From a bacterium (GTDB lineage Bacteria; Bacillota; Clostridia; Lachnospirales; Lachnospiraceae), in the NCBI GenBank assembly GCA_023667365.1, contig JAMPAG010000001.1, forward strand, positions 470,165 through 514,708: 44,544 nt of DNA, written 5' to 3'. The number at the start of each line of letters is the position of its first letter. The first letter of the stretch is position 1. Below are positions 25,336 through 34,540 of this stretch, piece by piece. The translations under genes and the position numbers were made by a program. The notes under the pieces were generated by a model. It saw only the letters and a list, made by a program, of their open reading frames with translations. It made no database searches and had not been told where the DNA came from.

Positions 25336-25461
25336 TCCGCACAGCATGTCGGTCGCAGACTCTTACAGGGCTTCCGCACAGCGCTGTCGGTCGCAAACCT
25401 TTCCATGCCTTCCGCACAGCACTGTCGTTCGCAGGCTTTTCCATGTCTTCCGCTTAGCAAG
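25336..25461. repeat. Degenerate 37-38 bp tandem repeat, 3.3 copies
   Basis: Units start at TCCGC at 25336, 25373, 25411 and 25449 (partial). Each carries a GCACAGC-xCTGTCG-like core that can form a short stem on either strand. The partial unit overlaps the end of the aminotransferase gene. Lengths that are not multiples of three make a coding role unlikely. There are no unique spacers, so it is not CRISPR. Confidence 0.8.
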
Positions 25462-28321: not shown

Positions 28322-28565
28322 CCGGCAGTCCCGGCTGTGTGCCAATCTATCGTTCTTCCCGGCTATGCACCAATCTATGGCGTTCCCGGCTGCGTGCCGG
28401 CATCCGATGCTCCGGGCTGGACGCCGCCGTCCGGTATGCCGGGTATGACTCCGCCATCCGGTACTCCGGGTATGACCCCTGTATCCGGTACACCGGGTAT
28501 GGCTCCGCTATCCGGCGCGCCGGACTGCATGCCGCCATCCGGTATACCGGGCACGCCGCCGATCT
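28322..28565. repeat. 27-bp tandem repeat encoding the VanW tail and continuing past its stop
   Basis: Six clear units begin at 28404, 28431, 28458, 28485, 28512 and 28539, each 27 bp. They encode a 9-residue repeat of pattern G-x-P-D-x-G-x-x-P. Related CCCGGC-type units of 27-28 bp continue at 28327-28404, through and beyond the stop codon at 28375, where a 28-nt unit would shift frame. Confidence 0.85.
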
Positions 28566-30075
28566 CAACCCCTCCCGGCTGCGCGGACGTCTCCGCCGAC
28601 TGTCCGTAATTTCCCGATGCGATCTGCGCCGCAACCGCCTTCGCGTGATCGACGCTGCCCGTTGCGATCGCCGCCTGTATCATATCATAAGCGACGGGAT
28701 CGCTCGTTGACGTGCCTACCGTCGCGGAGCGGCATGTCATTTTATAAGTATTGTGGCTGATCTGCTCCCGGCTGACCTCCACACCGTTTTCCGTGACAAT
28801 GCGGTATACGTCTGCGACATAACCTGTATGTGCCGGCTGTATATCCACGGCACCGATCGGCTGTGAAGCGTCCGCATAAACCGCTTCCGCCCCCGGCGGC
28901 GTTGTTTCAAGCACCACGCTCTCGTAGGCGACGCTGTGCGTCTCCGGTCTCGTCTCCACACCATAGATCGTCATTGTGATTCTTTTATTTGTCGTCGTAT
29001 ACCCCTCAATATAGATCGGATATTCCGTATTATTCACGAACGTAAAATCAATCCCCGAATCCTCGGACACCGTCGCATCCAGACCAATCTTGACATACCC
29101 GACCGCCATCGCATGATTGGAGCGGTTTGTCACCTCAAGTTCCGAATATAGAACAGCGTTATACAGTGTCGAGGATACCTGACAGATGCCGCCTCCGACA
29201 CTATCCACAACTTTCCCGCCCGAATAGGAACCCGCGGAATAATAACCGTTCCTCTCCGTAAACGGCGCGATGACCGCTAACGTAGAGAACTCTTCTCCCG
29301 GAAAAAGCACGGTGCCGTTCACCTTATTACATGCGTTGCGCACATTGGCACTTCTTGCCGAATCCGACGTTGCAAAACTCGTCGTGCAGGTCGCAAGCAC
29401 ATCGCTGATCTGTTTCAATTCCTCCACATCATGCGCCGGCTTGGCTGATTGAAGCTGAAGATCAAAGCTCTGCGCTTCGCCCTCCCATTGTCCGGTCAGT
29501 CCCGTATAGATCAGATCCACGGACGATGCGACATCCAGCTCTATGCCGTCCACACCCTCCGTATAGACAAATGCACCGTCCTCGATCGTCATAGAAGCAT
29601 TCTGGGCCGGCACATTGACCGCCTCACTCTGCGCCTGCACGATCGTCTCAATCGCCGCCCTGTCAAATGCAAGCTCGATCTCGTACACCTGATTATTGGC
29701 TGCCAGATCGGCAATCTCCTTGTAGCGTTTGAGAATATTTCCCTTGCGCCCGAAGCTGACCGCTTCCGCCAGAATCTCCGGATTTCCGAAACGGAGACCT
29801 AATTCTCCCGCCGTTGTCTGTATCGCCTGTTCTGCGGAAAGATTGAATGTGATCGGCGTCTGCGCAAGCGCCCCGATATAAGCGCCGATCGCCTGCTCCG
29901 CCTCCACGGGCGTCATGCCGGAAAGAGAAATATCTCCCGCATAAACGCCTTCACAGATCGTCGTCTGTGAATCCGCCCTGTCCCTCTCATTTTGCGCCGC
30001 ACTTACATTCATGCTCCCTGCGCTCAAAAATATCACTGACACAAGTGTCATGATTGTTCCGAATCTTCTTTTCAT
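28375..30075 (-). CDS. Exported VanW-family protein with repeat tail
   Basis: This 566-residue protein has an N-terminal signal peptide (TIMTLVSVIFLSAGSMNVSA). A region at about 40-230 resembles putative peptidoglycan-binding modules, followed by the VanW domain at about 245-370 with FPGEEFSTLAVIAPFTERNG and GGGICQVSSTLYNAVLYSEL. A G5-like beta region (about 375-450) follows, then a Pro/Gly/Asp-rich tail of 9-residue repeats (about 500-566). VanW proteins occur in envelope contexts; their function is not settled. ATG 30075 is preferred over in-frame TTG and GTG just upstream because CAGGTG is correctly spaced. The stop lies inside a repeat unit. Confidence 0.88.
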   Translation of the reverse strand: MKRRFGTIMTLVSVIFLSAGSMNVSAAQNERDRADSQTTICEGVYAGDISLSGMTPVEAEQAIGAYIGALAQTPITFNLSAEQAIQTTAGELGLRFGNPEILAEAVSFGRKGNILKRYKEIADLAANNQVYEIELAFDRAAIETIVQAQSEAVNVPAQNASMTIEDGAFVYTEGVDGIELDVASSVDLIYTGLTGQWEGEAQSFDLQLQSAKPAHDVEELKQISDVLATCTTSFATSDSARSANVRNACNKVNGTVLFPGEEFSTLAVIAPFTERNGYYSAGSYSGGKVVDSVGGGICQVSSTLYNAVLYSELEVTNRSNHAMAVGYVKIGLDATVSEDSGIDFTFVNNTEYPIYIEGYTTTNKRITMTIYGVETRPETHSVAYESVVLETTPPGAEAVYADASQPIGAVDIQPAHTGYVADVYRIVTENGVEVSREQISHNTYKMTCRSATVGTSTSDPVAYDMIQAAIATGSVDHAKAVAAQIASGNYGQSAETSAQPGGVEIGGVPGIPDGGMQSGAPDSGAIPGVPDTGVIPGVPDGGVIPGIPDGGVQPGASDAGTQPGTP

Positions 30076-30241
30076 CACCAATCACCTGTTTCCGATCAAC
30101 CTGCCGATAAATATCAAACACAAACTTGAAAAGAATCCATTCCTGACATACAATAGGAATGTACCGTTTTCGCCCGTTCAGCGTCACTATCAATATATGA
30201 CGTGTCCGCCGCGTTTATGACTTAAGACCGCCGCAACTGCC

Positions 30242-30446: not shown

Positions 30447-31073
30447 ATGAAAATACCTGTGTTTGCAAGTTTAATCCTGTTTTGTATCTGGTTGTCTTTT
30501 TCCATCGTCCGCTCCCGCAGAAAAGGGGAACGGGCGGAACGTGATTTTTGGGAAAAAGAGGCGCTTGCCGACCGCACGCGCAAACAGCCGCTCGATCAGC
30601 TTGCCTATATCGAAATTCCTTATGACACGCTTCCGTTTGCGCTTATTCCCGACGATCCGGTTCTTTCCGCCGCTGTTACGGACTGCCACCGCATCTTAAA
30701 CGGGTTCCGCACCAAAAAAGCAGTCAACTTAACCGGCATCAGCAACACAGACCTAAAACTGACCTACGGTGCGCCCAACATTACGATTCTCATGGAATAT
30801 GATGAAAACTATACGCTGCTCGTGCGCACCATGCAGAAATGGGCGGATCTGCTCCTAAAAGCAGGATTCGAACAGGAAGCGGTTTCTATTATGGAATTCT
30901 GTATTGAGACACACACGGACATCAGCGCAACCTACCGCACGCTCGCGCGTATTTACCGGGAGCGTGGAGAAGAAGCGCAGCTTCAACATCTGCGCGAGAC
31001 CGCGGACGGACTGCTTTCGATCATGCGCCAGCCGATCTTACGCCTGCTGGACGAGGCGGAGCAGGGGGAGTGA
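30447..31073 (+). CDS. Membrane-anchored protein of unknown function, TPR-like C-terminus
   Basis: This 208-residue protein has one N-terminal hydrophobic segment (about 4-20) followed by Arg/Glu-rich sequence, so most of the protein should be cytoplasmic. Residues about 135-200 look like helical TPR-type pairs (WADLLLKAGFEQEAVSIMEF, TYRTLARIYRERGEEAQL). I do not recognise a named family. The start follows AAAGGAT. It is upstream of the Abi module on the same strand, but a separate consensus promoter for that module argues against a common transcript. Confidence 0.75.
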   Translation: MKIPVFASLILFCIWLSFSIVRSRRKGERAERDFWEKEALADRTRKQPLDQLAYIEIPYDTLPFALIPDDPVLSAAVTDCHRILNGFRTKKAVNLTGISNTDLKLTYGAPNITILMEYDENYTLLVRTMQKWADLLLKAGFEQEAVSIMEFCIETHTDISATYRTLARIYRERGEEAQLQHLRETADGLLSIMRQPILRLLDEAEQGE

Positions 31074-31228
31074 AAAAGAAAAAGCAAAAGTCAAACTGCA
31101 TTCACATAGAGCGCTTTATCTCACACCGGTTTTTCGACTGTGCATAACGACTGCCAATCTGCATATGATAAAAATGCCGGAGGCATGCCGGCATAATGAC
31201 AGGCATACGCATCGGCATGAACTTGCCG

Positions 31229-31257
31229 TTGACATCCGTGTCGTCTTATGCTATACT
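31229..31257 (+). promoter_or_regulatory. Consensus sigma-A promoter of the AbiF-associated RNA
   Basis: TTGACA, 17-nt spacer, TATACT; the -35 is perfect. Predicted transcript start is about A31264. It is one of the strongest promoters in the window, yet it is followed about 40 nt later by a terminator. Confidence 0.9.
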
Positions 31258-31263
31258 GCCTCT

Positions 31264-31333
31264 AGTGATCGTGTCGCAGAAGCTTGCGCGGCCTGCGACC
31301 GGAAAAAGCTCCCACGGGAGCTTTTTCCTTTTT
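31264..31333 (+). ncRNA. Short structured RNA upstream of abiF-like gene (putative antitoxin RNA/attenuator)
   Basis: The predicted transcript is about 70 nt. Stem 1 is GTCGCAG (31273-31279) with CTGCGAC (31293-31299), enclosing a 13-nt loop. Then follows a 10-bp terminator hairpin (31303-31312 with 31317-31326) and CCTTTTT. The gene's ribosome site ACGGAGG starts directly after the T-run at 31334. Most transcripts should end here and yield a free small RNA, with a minority reading into the gene. The layout matches what has been described for AbiF-type systems, where a structured RNA restrains the HEPN protein. The RNA itself has no family match that I can name. Confidence 0.7.
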
Positions 31334-31345
31334 ACGGAGGACAAT

Positions 31346-32302
31346 ATGGCACAAAACAAATCAAATAATAAACCGTTCCTATCTTATCAGGAACAGATCA
31401 ATAAACTGAAAAATGAGAAAAAGCTGCAGATCCCCGACGAATCACGGGCGGTCGCTTTGCTAAAACGACATAGCTATTTTGCCTTGGTTTCCGGTTACAA
31501 AAAACCGTTTAAGCGGAAAGACGGCACCTATCAGCCCCATACAACTTTAGATGACATTTATGCTCTGTATTCTTTTGATAACGCATTGAGAAACGTCATT
31601 TTTAGTAAAATTCTGATTGTGGAAAAACATGTCAAATCCGTTCTGTCTTATTCTTTTTGTGAAGAGTACGGCAGTTCACAGCAGGCATACTTGAATCCAA
31701 ACAATTACCATTTTGTCCCCGAAAACCAGTGTGGAATCCGCAAACTGGTCGCTAAACTGACCTGCATCGCAGACGATCCGAAAGATTATCGCTATATTCA
31801 GTACCAAAAGGATGTCTATCATAACATTCCTCTTTGGGTGATGGTAAAGGCGCTTCCTATGGGGAGCATCTCTAAAATGTATAGTTACCTGCCGCCACAG
31901 ATCCAATCCCGAATCAGCATGGAGTTTGCCGCCGTCAATGAAGAAGAACTGAGCCGAATGCTCGACCTGCTCTCCCGCGTGCGAAACGTATGCGCCCATA
32001 ACGAGCGCTTGTATGATTACCGCTATCAAAGAGGTGCGATCAAGGATTCTTCCGTTCACAGAATGCTCGACCTGCCAAAAAAAGTAAATGCATATCAGCT
32101 CGGTAAATCCGATCTGTTTGCTGTCATGATTTGTCTGAAATATTTACTGGATGCAGAAGAAATATCGGAATTAACCGCGGAAATTCGAACATTACTGAAT
32201 ACGCTTTATGCATCCACAAAACAGATCAACGCGGCGCAAATGAGAAAATATATGGGATTCCCCGAAAATTGGGAAGAAATTGCAACATGCCCCATTTTGT
32301 AG
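31346..32302 (+). CDS. Abi_2-family (AbiD/AbiF-like) HEPN protein
   Basis: This 318-residue cytoplasmic protein has a typical Abi_2 N-terminus: FLSYQEQINKLK, DESRAVALLKRHSYFALVSGY at 31-51, then DIYALYSFDNALRNVIF. The HEPN ribonuclease motif Rx4H is RNVCAH at R213-H218 followed by NERLY, as in AbiF. Abi_2 proteins cause abortive infection, probably by RNA cleavage when a phage enters. ATG 31346 is fixed by GGAGG at 5 nt; upstream frame would cross promoter and RNA. The gene is visibly more AT-rich than its neighbours, which suggests horizontal arrival. Its stop is 10 nt from the converging exonuclease gene. Confidence 0.88.
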   Translation: MAQNKSNNKPFLSYQEQINKLKNEKKLQIPDESRAVALLKRHSYFALVSGYKKPFKRKDGTYQPHTTLDDIYALYSFDNALRNVIFSKILIVEKHVKSVLSYSFCEEYGSSQQAYLNPNNYHFVPENQCGIRKLVAKLTCIADDPKDYRYIQYQKDVYHNIPLWVMVKALPMGSISKMYSYLPPQIQSRISMEFAAVNEEELSRMLDLLSRVRNVCAHNERLYDYRYQRGAIKDSSVHRMLDLPKKVNAYQLGKSDLFAVMICLKYLLDAEEISELTAEIRTLLNTLYASTKQINAAQMRKYMGFPENWEEIATCPIL

Positions 32303-32312
32303 CGTTTCGCGC

Positions 32313-33029
32313 TCACCCCTCCGCGTCCCGCTTCCTTTTTCCATAGGCGAGCGTCAGCTTGTCCATCATGCGCGACGCCTCATTTTTCGTCATGCGGTCG
32401 ATCTCACAATCCGGGGCGACATGATAATATTCCAGCATTTTTAAGAGCCGTTCCCGCTGTGCAGGCGTGATCGGCCCTTCTTTTTTTACTCTATATGTCA
32501 GTTGGTACGGCTCCGCCTGATCGGCGGTCTCAAACTGCGCGCACAATTTTTGATACAACGCGTGCGTGGCGAGCGCGTCTCCCAGCGCACGGTGCGCCGT
32601 ATGCCCGATCCCGTAATGTTCGCAGAGCGCGCCGAGCGAACGGCTTGGCAATTCCGGCAGGCAGAGCCGCGCCAGCTTTAGCGTATCAATCGCTTTTTTC
32701 TCAAACGCATATTTCTGATTAACCGCCGCACGCTTTAGAAACGAGTAGTCAAACCGCACGCTGTGACCGAGCAGCAGATCCTCTCCCGCAAAATCAAGAA
32801 ACGCCGGCAGCACCTCCTCGATATAAGGCGCGCCGCACAGCATGTCGTCCGTGATCCCCGTCAGCTTCACAATGCGCTCCGTCAGTTTTCGCGCCGGATT
32901 CACAAGCGTCTGATACGTCTCTGCCACCTGTCCGTCCCGCACGCGCGCCGCGCCGATCTCTATGATTTTTTCTGTTTTCGGATCTAAACCGGTCGTCTCT
33001 ATATCCAGCACAACATACGATGACTGCAT
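32313..33029 (-). CDS. DnaQ-like 3'-5' exonuclease (DEDDh)
   Basis: This 238-residue protein has the RNase T/DNA polymerase III epsilon fold. Metal-binding motifs are VLDIETTG (Exo I, D9 and E11), GHSVRFDYSFL (Exo II) and HRALGDALAT (Exo III with His and Asp). A C-terminal extension (about 175-238) is helical and basic. It is not fused to PolC, so it is a stand-alone proofreading or RNA/DNA trimming enzyme. It converges with the abiF-like gene without a visible terminator. Confidence 0.88.
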   Translation of the reverse strand: MQSSYVVLDIETTGLDPKTEKIIEIGAARVRDGQVAETYQTLVNPARKLTERIVKLTGITDDMLCGAPYIEEVLPAFLDFAGEDLLLGHSVRFDYSFLKRAAVNQKYAFEKKAIDTLKLARLCLPELPSRSLGALCEHYGIGHTAHRALGDALATHALYQKLCAQFETADQAEPYQLTYRVKKEGPITPAQRERLLKMLEYYHVAPDCEIDRMTKNEASRMMDKLTLAYGKRKRDAEG

Positions 33030-34366: not shown

Positions 34367-34430
34367 GATTCATTTCCCCTTCCTGATTATTTCTTAATAC
34401 GATTATCCGCCTGCTGCCTCGTCTCTTTCG

Positions 34431-34540
34431 CTTCCTTTATACACGCCCGCCGGGGCATCCGCGCCCTCTACTTCCTTCGTGCACGCCAGCCGGGGCATCC
34501 GCTCCCCTCCGCTTCCTTCGTGCACGCCAGCCAAGGTATG
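34431..34540. repeat. Degenerate 40-41 bp tandem repeat, about 2.7 copies
   Basis: Units begin CTTCCTT at 34431, 34471 and 34512 and share GCACGCCAGCCGGGGCATCC-like cores. The repeat fills much of the 324-nt space between the lipoprotein gene and galT, together with the galT terminator. A minus-strand open frame across it has no ribosome site and changes frame between units, so I do not treat it as a gene. Confidence 0.75.

Follow-up and report, generated by a model that had tools for sequence, protein, structure and literature searches.

What does a short structured RNA encoded between a promoter and the gene of an Abi_2 protein do: does it only set the expression of the gene, or does it also act on the protein? 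The question is raised by a locus in the window, by which we mean the whole analysed stretch of 44,544 nucleotides from a bacterium of the Lachnospiraceae (GCA_023667365.1, contig JAMPAG010000001.1, positions 470,165 to 514,708). The initial annotation had described a promoter, an RNA of about 70 nt with a 7-bp stem and a 13-nt loop, and a terminator, followed without a gap by a ribosome binding site and an Abi_2 gene. This order was confirmed, and the features are as follows.

31229-31257, plus strand: sigma-70 promoter TTGACA-17-TATACT (TTGACA at 31229-31234, TATACT at 31252-31257), predicted to drive the RNA and, by read-through, the gene
31264-31333, plus strand: small structured RNA of about 70 nt (covariance model R1, no Rfam family), proposed RNA antitoxin and transcription attenuator
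31273-31299, plus strand: hairpin 1, a 7-bp stem (31273-31279 with 31293-31299) and a conserved 13-nt loop (31280-31292), from covariation
31301-31333, plus strand: hairpin 2 and U-tract, intrinsic terminator and conserved RNA element (stem-loop at 31301-31328 with 12 bp and a 4-nt loop, then T5)
31336-31340, plus strand: ribosome binding site GGAGG, from the sequence
31346-32302, plus strand: gene of an Abi_2 / AbiD-F HEPN protein of 318 amino acids with its ATG at 31346, proposed RNase toxin
31982-31999, plus strand: codons of the HEPN active-site motif R213-N-V-C-A-H218, from conservation and alignment to R210/H215 of PbAbiF

The promoter had been called perfect, which does not hold for the −10 box TATACT; with 11 of the 12 consensus bases and a spacer of 17 nt it is strong all the same. 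The 70-nt stretch begins six bases past the −10 box with AGUGAUCG. Homologous loci were collected by scanning a genome collection with the protein alignment, so that the RNA was not a criterion, and 80 loci were obtained. In 95% of them a sigma-70-like promoter stood equally far from the RNA, whereas 8% of shuffled sequences reached the score. The spacer was 17 nt in 75 of 76 loci, and 6-7 nt separated the −10 box from the first conserved base of the RNA. The spacing of promoter, RNA start and terminator was thus conserved among the 80 loci, and the fixed distance from promoter to RNA indicates where transcription likely starts.

The protein was assigned to Pfam Abi_2 (E=4e-43; 148 bits, cut-off 25.6) and by PADLOC to AbiD (E=7e-64), and its gene is the one Abi_2 gene of the genome. 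The Rx4H motif given for it (R213, H218) was found as RNVCAH at residues 213-218. In an alignment with 63 relatives, from which loci with in-frame stops were left out, R213, N214, C216, A217 and H218 were invariant. An AlphaFold2 model from a single sequence was poor; the model built from the 63-relative alignment reached a pLDDT of 94.6. The sole solved structure matched, both by sequence (phmmer, E=5e-15) and by fold (Foldseek, E=1e-10, TM 0.74/0.79), was PDB 8VZ6, which is reported to be a PbAbiF dimer with one ncRNA bound per monomer (PMC12737573, PMC12373285). R213 and H218 align with R210 and H215 of PbAbiF, residues reported to be needed for its activity, which is abolished when they are mutated (PMC12373285). 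The two proteins share this fold and the aligned catalytic residues but only about 21% identity. Cas13 or a type VI CRISPR system was not indicated for the window: the protein is 318 residues long with a single Rx4H motif, no CRISPR array was found among the tandem repeats, and the PADLOC Cas13d model matched at E=0.13 only. Separately, we observed a degenerate tandem repeat of about 27 bp at 28396-28561, which is the end of a VanW-domain protein gene (28375-30081, minus strand), and two short tandem arrays at 34429-34532 and 25336-25453 with units of 40 and 38 bp in 2.6 and 3.1 copies.

The predicted RNA (31264-31333) folds more stably than its shuffles (z-score −4.2). Hairpin 1 alone is not unusual in stability compared with shuffles (z −0.6), and the case for the RNA therefore rests on conservation and covariation. 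Among 299 genomes of the same family, a homologous RNA was evident before the gene in nearly all close relatives of the protein. In a MAFFT alignment of 29 sequences, all 203 pair-cells of hairpin 1 were paired, 5 of the 7 pairs had changed on both sides, the covariation score was 0.726 against 0.324 in shuffles and the columns C20, G23, G25 and G28 were invariant. Since the members of this alignment had been chosen with a stem requirement, the covariation test was repeated on the loci selected by protein only. The covariance model R1, which was built from the first set, contains the window RNA in its seed alignment and scores it with 68 bits (E=2e-17), placed the RNA directly upstream of the gene in 80 of 80 loci. 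The conserved stem upstream of homologues, which had been named as a check on the reading, was accordingly present, and both helices covaried. Standard pairs made up 98.1% of the pair-cells, double changes occurred in 15 of 16 pairs and no shuffle reached the score, in an alignment that was fitted to R1 and hence leans towards its structure. The covariation of both hairpins also exceeded that of slid controls. Over the 75 distinct sequences hairpin 1 was paired in 99.4% of cells, and in hairpin 2 every pair covaried with 96-100% of cells paired. When 142 distinct RNAs were aligned with MAFFT, blind to structure, the strongest covarying columns were those of the two hairpins. Two candidate pairings were rejected. 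Covariation of column 5 with columns 49 and 54 in the 142-RNA alignment was taken as a lineage signal, and sequestration of the ribosome binding site by a 5' CCUCU, seen in a longer fold, was dismissed as the CCUCU precedes the predicted start at 31264. Taken together, the locus carries an RNA of conserved structure with its own promoter, linked to an Abi_2 gene with the terminator between them, which is the architecture of type III modules of the AbiF kind.

We then compared the RNA with known families. No Rfam family matched the window at its gathering score; at a permissive threshold only terminator-like families appeared, which were put down to chance. The abiF RNA family RF03085 did not match the window even at E<=10, and at its gathering score it was found in none of 20 homologous loci; it was also not found in the genome of the window. 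RF03085 occurs in the same bacterial family before other Abi_2 genes, with proteins about 20-30% identical to that of the window, and there R1 gave nothing convincing. On a tree of Abi_2 proteins all 32 toxins with the RNA class of the window lie on one side of a single branch (support 93), and the RNA class changed once on the tree compared with a mean of 23 changes in shuffles. The RF03085-bearing toxins sit in another clade than the window toxin. The other clades have RF03085-like RNAs, other leaders judged by eye (for example AACAGAGUUGCCC... or ..CCUCCGGUGUCCUUCGG..), or no obvious RNA.

Several leaders outside R1 were observed along the way. A second leader RNA that is not in Rfam, starting with AACAGAGUUGCC, precedes one Abi_2 clade (L163, L164, L166, L167, L169 and L171), and its first 12 bases are invariant over these six members. 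Leaders with promoter and hairpin/terminator but of further sequence types, among them ..CCUCCGGUGUCCUUCGG.., stand before other Abi_2 clades (L140, L141, L147, L148, L149, L150, L156 and L170). On a plasmid of Leptotrichia hofstadii (L189, about 1380-1490), a leader AAGTGAACGTGAGCAACTTAGAGG..GAGCTCAC was missed by the R1 model and resembles a distant form of the R1 RNA, in the Fusobacteriota.

The initial annotation knew of no description of the RNA. With respect to Rfam this stands for the RNA itself, which matches none of its families, but not for the kind of system, for which RF03085, RCd22, AbiFr and the 50-nt RNA of abiD1 have been described. Measured against Rfam, what is new is the RNA, which forms a distinct family with strong covariation and is linked to a single AbiD/F clade, in a system of known type. 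We tentatively suggest, at somewhat less than even confidence, that Abi_2 toxins carry clade-specific RNA antitoxins that look unrelated, of which R1 is an undescribed family. If so, the HEPN fold would have stayed while its RNA partner was repeatedly replaced or changed until it was no longer recognisable, and the widespread solitary R1 RNAs may protect cells from incoming toxin modules.

The family survey of 299 genomes yielded 72 copies of the R1 RNA at E<1e-6. An intact toxin gene follows 31 of these copies and comes shortly before 2 others, and a broken toxin gene follows 15. For 23 copies no toxin could be recognised within about 1.5 kb, and 1 copy is at a contig edge. The toxin remnant is in one case about the last 26 codons (L180), and in another the toxin was apparently cut by a transposase gene (L113). 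No intact toxin of the R1 clade without a nearby RNA was found in these genomes. As a proof of antitoxin action this lopsided loss was rejected, because the gene is a target 13 times the size of the RNA, and from target size by itself zero RNA losses would be expected with a chance probability of about 0.06. That RNAs without toxin outnumber toxins without RNA thus points to action in trans only weakly. The solitary RNAs had lower scores (median 66.6 against 76.8 bits, p=0.002), as expected of decaying relics. In L183 (2036-2873 in RNA orientation) one of them lies, possibly by chance, shortly before a two-gene operon for a 59-amino-acid protein and a zeta-toxin-like P-loop protein.

Most named carriers belong to the Lachnospiraceae, among them Blautia sp. 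An81 (L222) and Blautia schinkii DSM 10518 (L275), and the others to the Oscillospiraceae and further Clostridia. The RNA is thinly spread across the class, where among 245 genomes it was found in 6 from other families, and a wider sample of the phylum gave one further, weaker match. RNA and gene also occur together in two records of faecal phages and on nine viral contigs. Viral contigs queried with the single protein gave nothing; with the protein alignment as query relatives were found, and the RNA was directly upstream in all 9 viral-contig relatives with at least 34% identity. On these comparisons R1 is a new putative cognate RNA family with respect to Rfam, mainly of Lachnospiraceae and scattered in other Clostridia and phages.

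The position of the RNA bears on whether it is a cis leader only, in which the terminator and the upstream hairpin, as a sensor or protein-binding site, would set the read-through without any action on the protein in trans. The terminator stands immediately before the ribosome binding site in nearly all relatives, as this reading predicts. The lactococcal abiD1 promoter moreover yields only a 50-nt terminated transcript, with the regulation placed at the translation-initiation region in the published account (PMC2661086). However, hairpin 1 and its loop are dispensable for termination and yet belong to the most conserved parts of the RNA. The toxin of L173 has its RNA, with its own promoter, only downstream, so that cis attenuation is impossible there. 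RNAs flank the toxin on both sides in L188, L224/L184 and L236, and more weakly in L026; tandem copies occur in L016 and L213, the RNA being usually single elsewhere. In L016 and L184 the extra copy keeps hairpin 2 without the U-tract. These downstream and extra copies suggest an action beyond simple attenuation. RNAs also persist where the toxin has been deleted, and the C. difficile RNA works in trans (PMC12373285). We therefore regard a purely cis-acting leader as improbable.

The closest parallel is AbiFCd-RCd22 of Clostridioides difficile, where AbiFCd is a toxin and most transcripts terminate in the leader RNA without reaching the gene (PMC12373285). RCd22 neutralises AbiFCd in cis and in trans by direct binding, and the neutralisation is abolished by stem-breaking mutations but not by compensatory ones (PMC12373285). 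Both loci have an Abi_2 HEPN protein with the RN..AH motif and an upstream RNA of short hairpins with its own promoter and terminator, the gene being read through. The RNAs differ in sequence and in build: the window has a single hairpin (7 bp, 13-nt loop) together with a conserved terminator hairpin, whereas RCd22 has two abiF motifs of 33-35 nt. PbAbiF and AbiFr are likewise reported as a toxin-RNA antitoxin pair (PMC12737573, PMC12373285). For abiD1 of Lactococcus, an abortive infection gene, the account describes a terminated leader RNA of about 50 nt from the promoter, a terminator directly before the ribosome binding site and expression by read-through, as proposed for the window, whose protein PADLOC calls AbiD; the text available from this source does not treat the RNA as a binding partner and places activation by a phage protein at translation (PMC2661086).

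ToxIN and other type III systems have an RNA antitoxin upstream of an RNase toxin. The window differs from ToxIN in the toxin, which has the HEPN/Abi_2 fold and not that of ToxN, and in the RNA, which is usually a single copy (tandem pairs in L016 and L213) instead of a long repeat array.

We conclude that the locus is probably a module of the AbiD/F kind with two parts, a toxin and an RNA antitoxin in the manner of type III systems, in which the RNA would restrain the HEPN toxin. The dual role that had been proposed, restraint of the protein by the RNA and limitation of read-through by the terminator, is supported by the upstream position of the RNA in every protein-selected locus, the covariation and the kept spacing; the same roles were demonstrated by experiment in the distant AbiFCd/RCd22 (PMC12373285). 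By this analogy the RNA most likely has two actions: in trans it would bind the toxin and silence it, and in cis it would limit read-through into the gene. The analogy spans a wide evolutionary distance, with protein identities of about 21-30% and an RNA that shares no detectable family with RF03085. The single promoter would give an RNA of about 70 nt, with transcription usually ending at the terminator of the RNA; the RNA would thus be abundant and the gene read by leakage only. Hairpin 1 with its conserved loop, and probably the terminator hairpin too, would bind the HEPN dimer and block the site at which it cuts RNA. A disturbance of this balance, for which phage infection is the most plausible cause, would leave toxin free to cut RNA and stop growth, and the arrest would protect the population. 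The protein is probably a growth-arresting, anti-phage RNA-cutting enzyme.

A different use of the RNA, to guide the HEPN protein to targets without inhibiting it, would make the pair an RNA-guided nuclease ancestral to Cas13. The HEPN domains of AbiD/F have been proposed as relatives of the Cas13 ancestor, and a possible RNA-guided capability has been suggested (PMC12165695). The R1 RNA, however, is conserved in sequence or in covarying structure from its 5' end to the terminator and has no variable guide-like segment, and in C. difficile the RNA neutralises AbiF, which is a toxin (PMC12373285). Guiding is therefore very improbable, and we keep to the toxin restrained by its RNA.

The locus had been described as richer in AT than its neighbours, and the GC content is indeed 0.42-0.46 compared with mostly 0.51-0.60 around it. 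In 3 of 5 congeners (G299, G301 and G302) the corresponding site lacks the cassette of RNA and gene (31064-32335 of the window): the two genes that flank it in the window are only about 110-190 bp apart, with neither RNA nor toxin between them. In a fourth congener RNA and toxin occupy this site, with a protein 85% identical. Since the cassette is present or absent as a whole between the same neighbours, RNA and gene were gained or lost as one unit. The transfer that had been suggested fits this pattern as far as mobility is concerned; gain and loss look the same in it.

Toxin-antitoxin pairs in mobile elements often stabilise those elements. The module could thus serve mainly the stability of the host or of a mobile element, by addiction or as a stress response, and not phage defence. 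Its members in phages and viral contigs, and its presence or absence at one site within the genus, are consistent with this. Against it, lactococcal AbiD1 and AbiF, from the same superfamily, are reported to protect against phage (PMC2661086; references in PMC12373285), and we consider a role mainly in stability unlikely, though clearly less so than a pure leader. Phage defence by an RNA-restrained toxin remains our preferred reading.

The initial annotation was thus correct in its main observation, and sequence evolution gives good support to its interpretation. Cas13 is proposed to have arisen from AbiF toxins paired with RNA antitoxins, and R1 would add a second deeply conserved cognate RNA that is tied to its own toxin clade, across gut Clostridia. 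With R1 three questions become directly testable: how the specificity for the RNA changes in this lineage, which parts of the RNA occupy the HEPN active site, and whether a solitary RNA makes its carrier immune to the toxin. The R1 covariance model can also flag modules that RF03085 misses.
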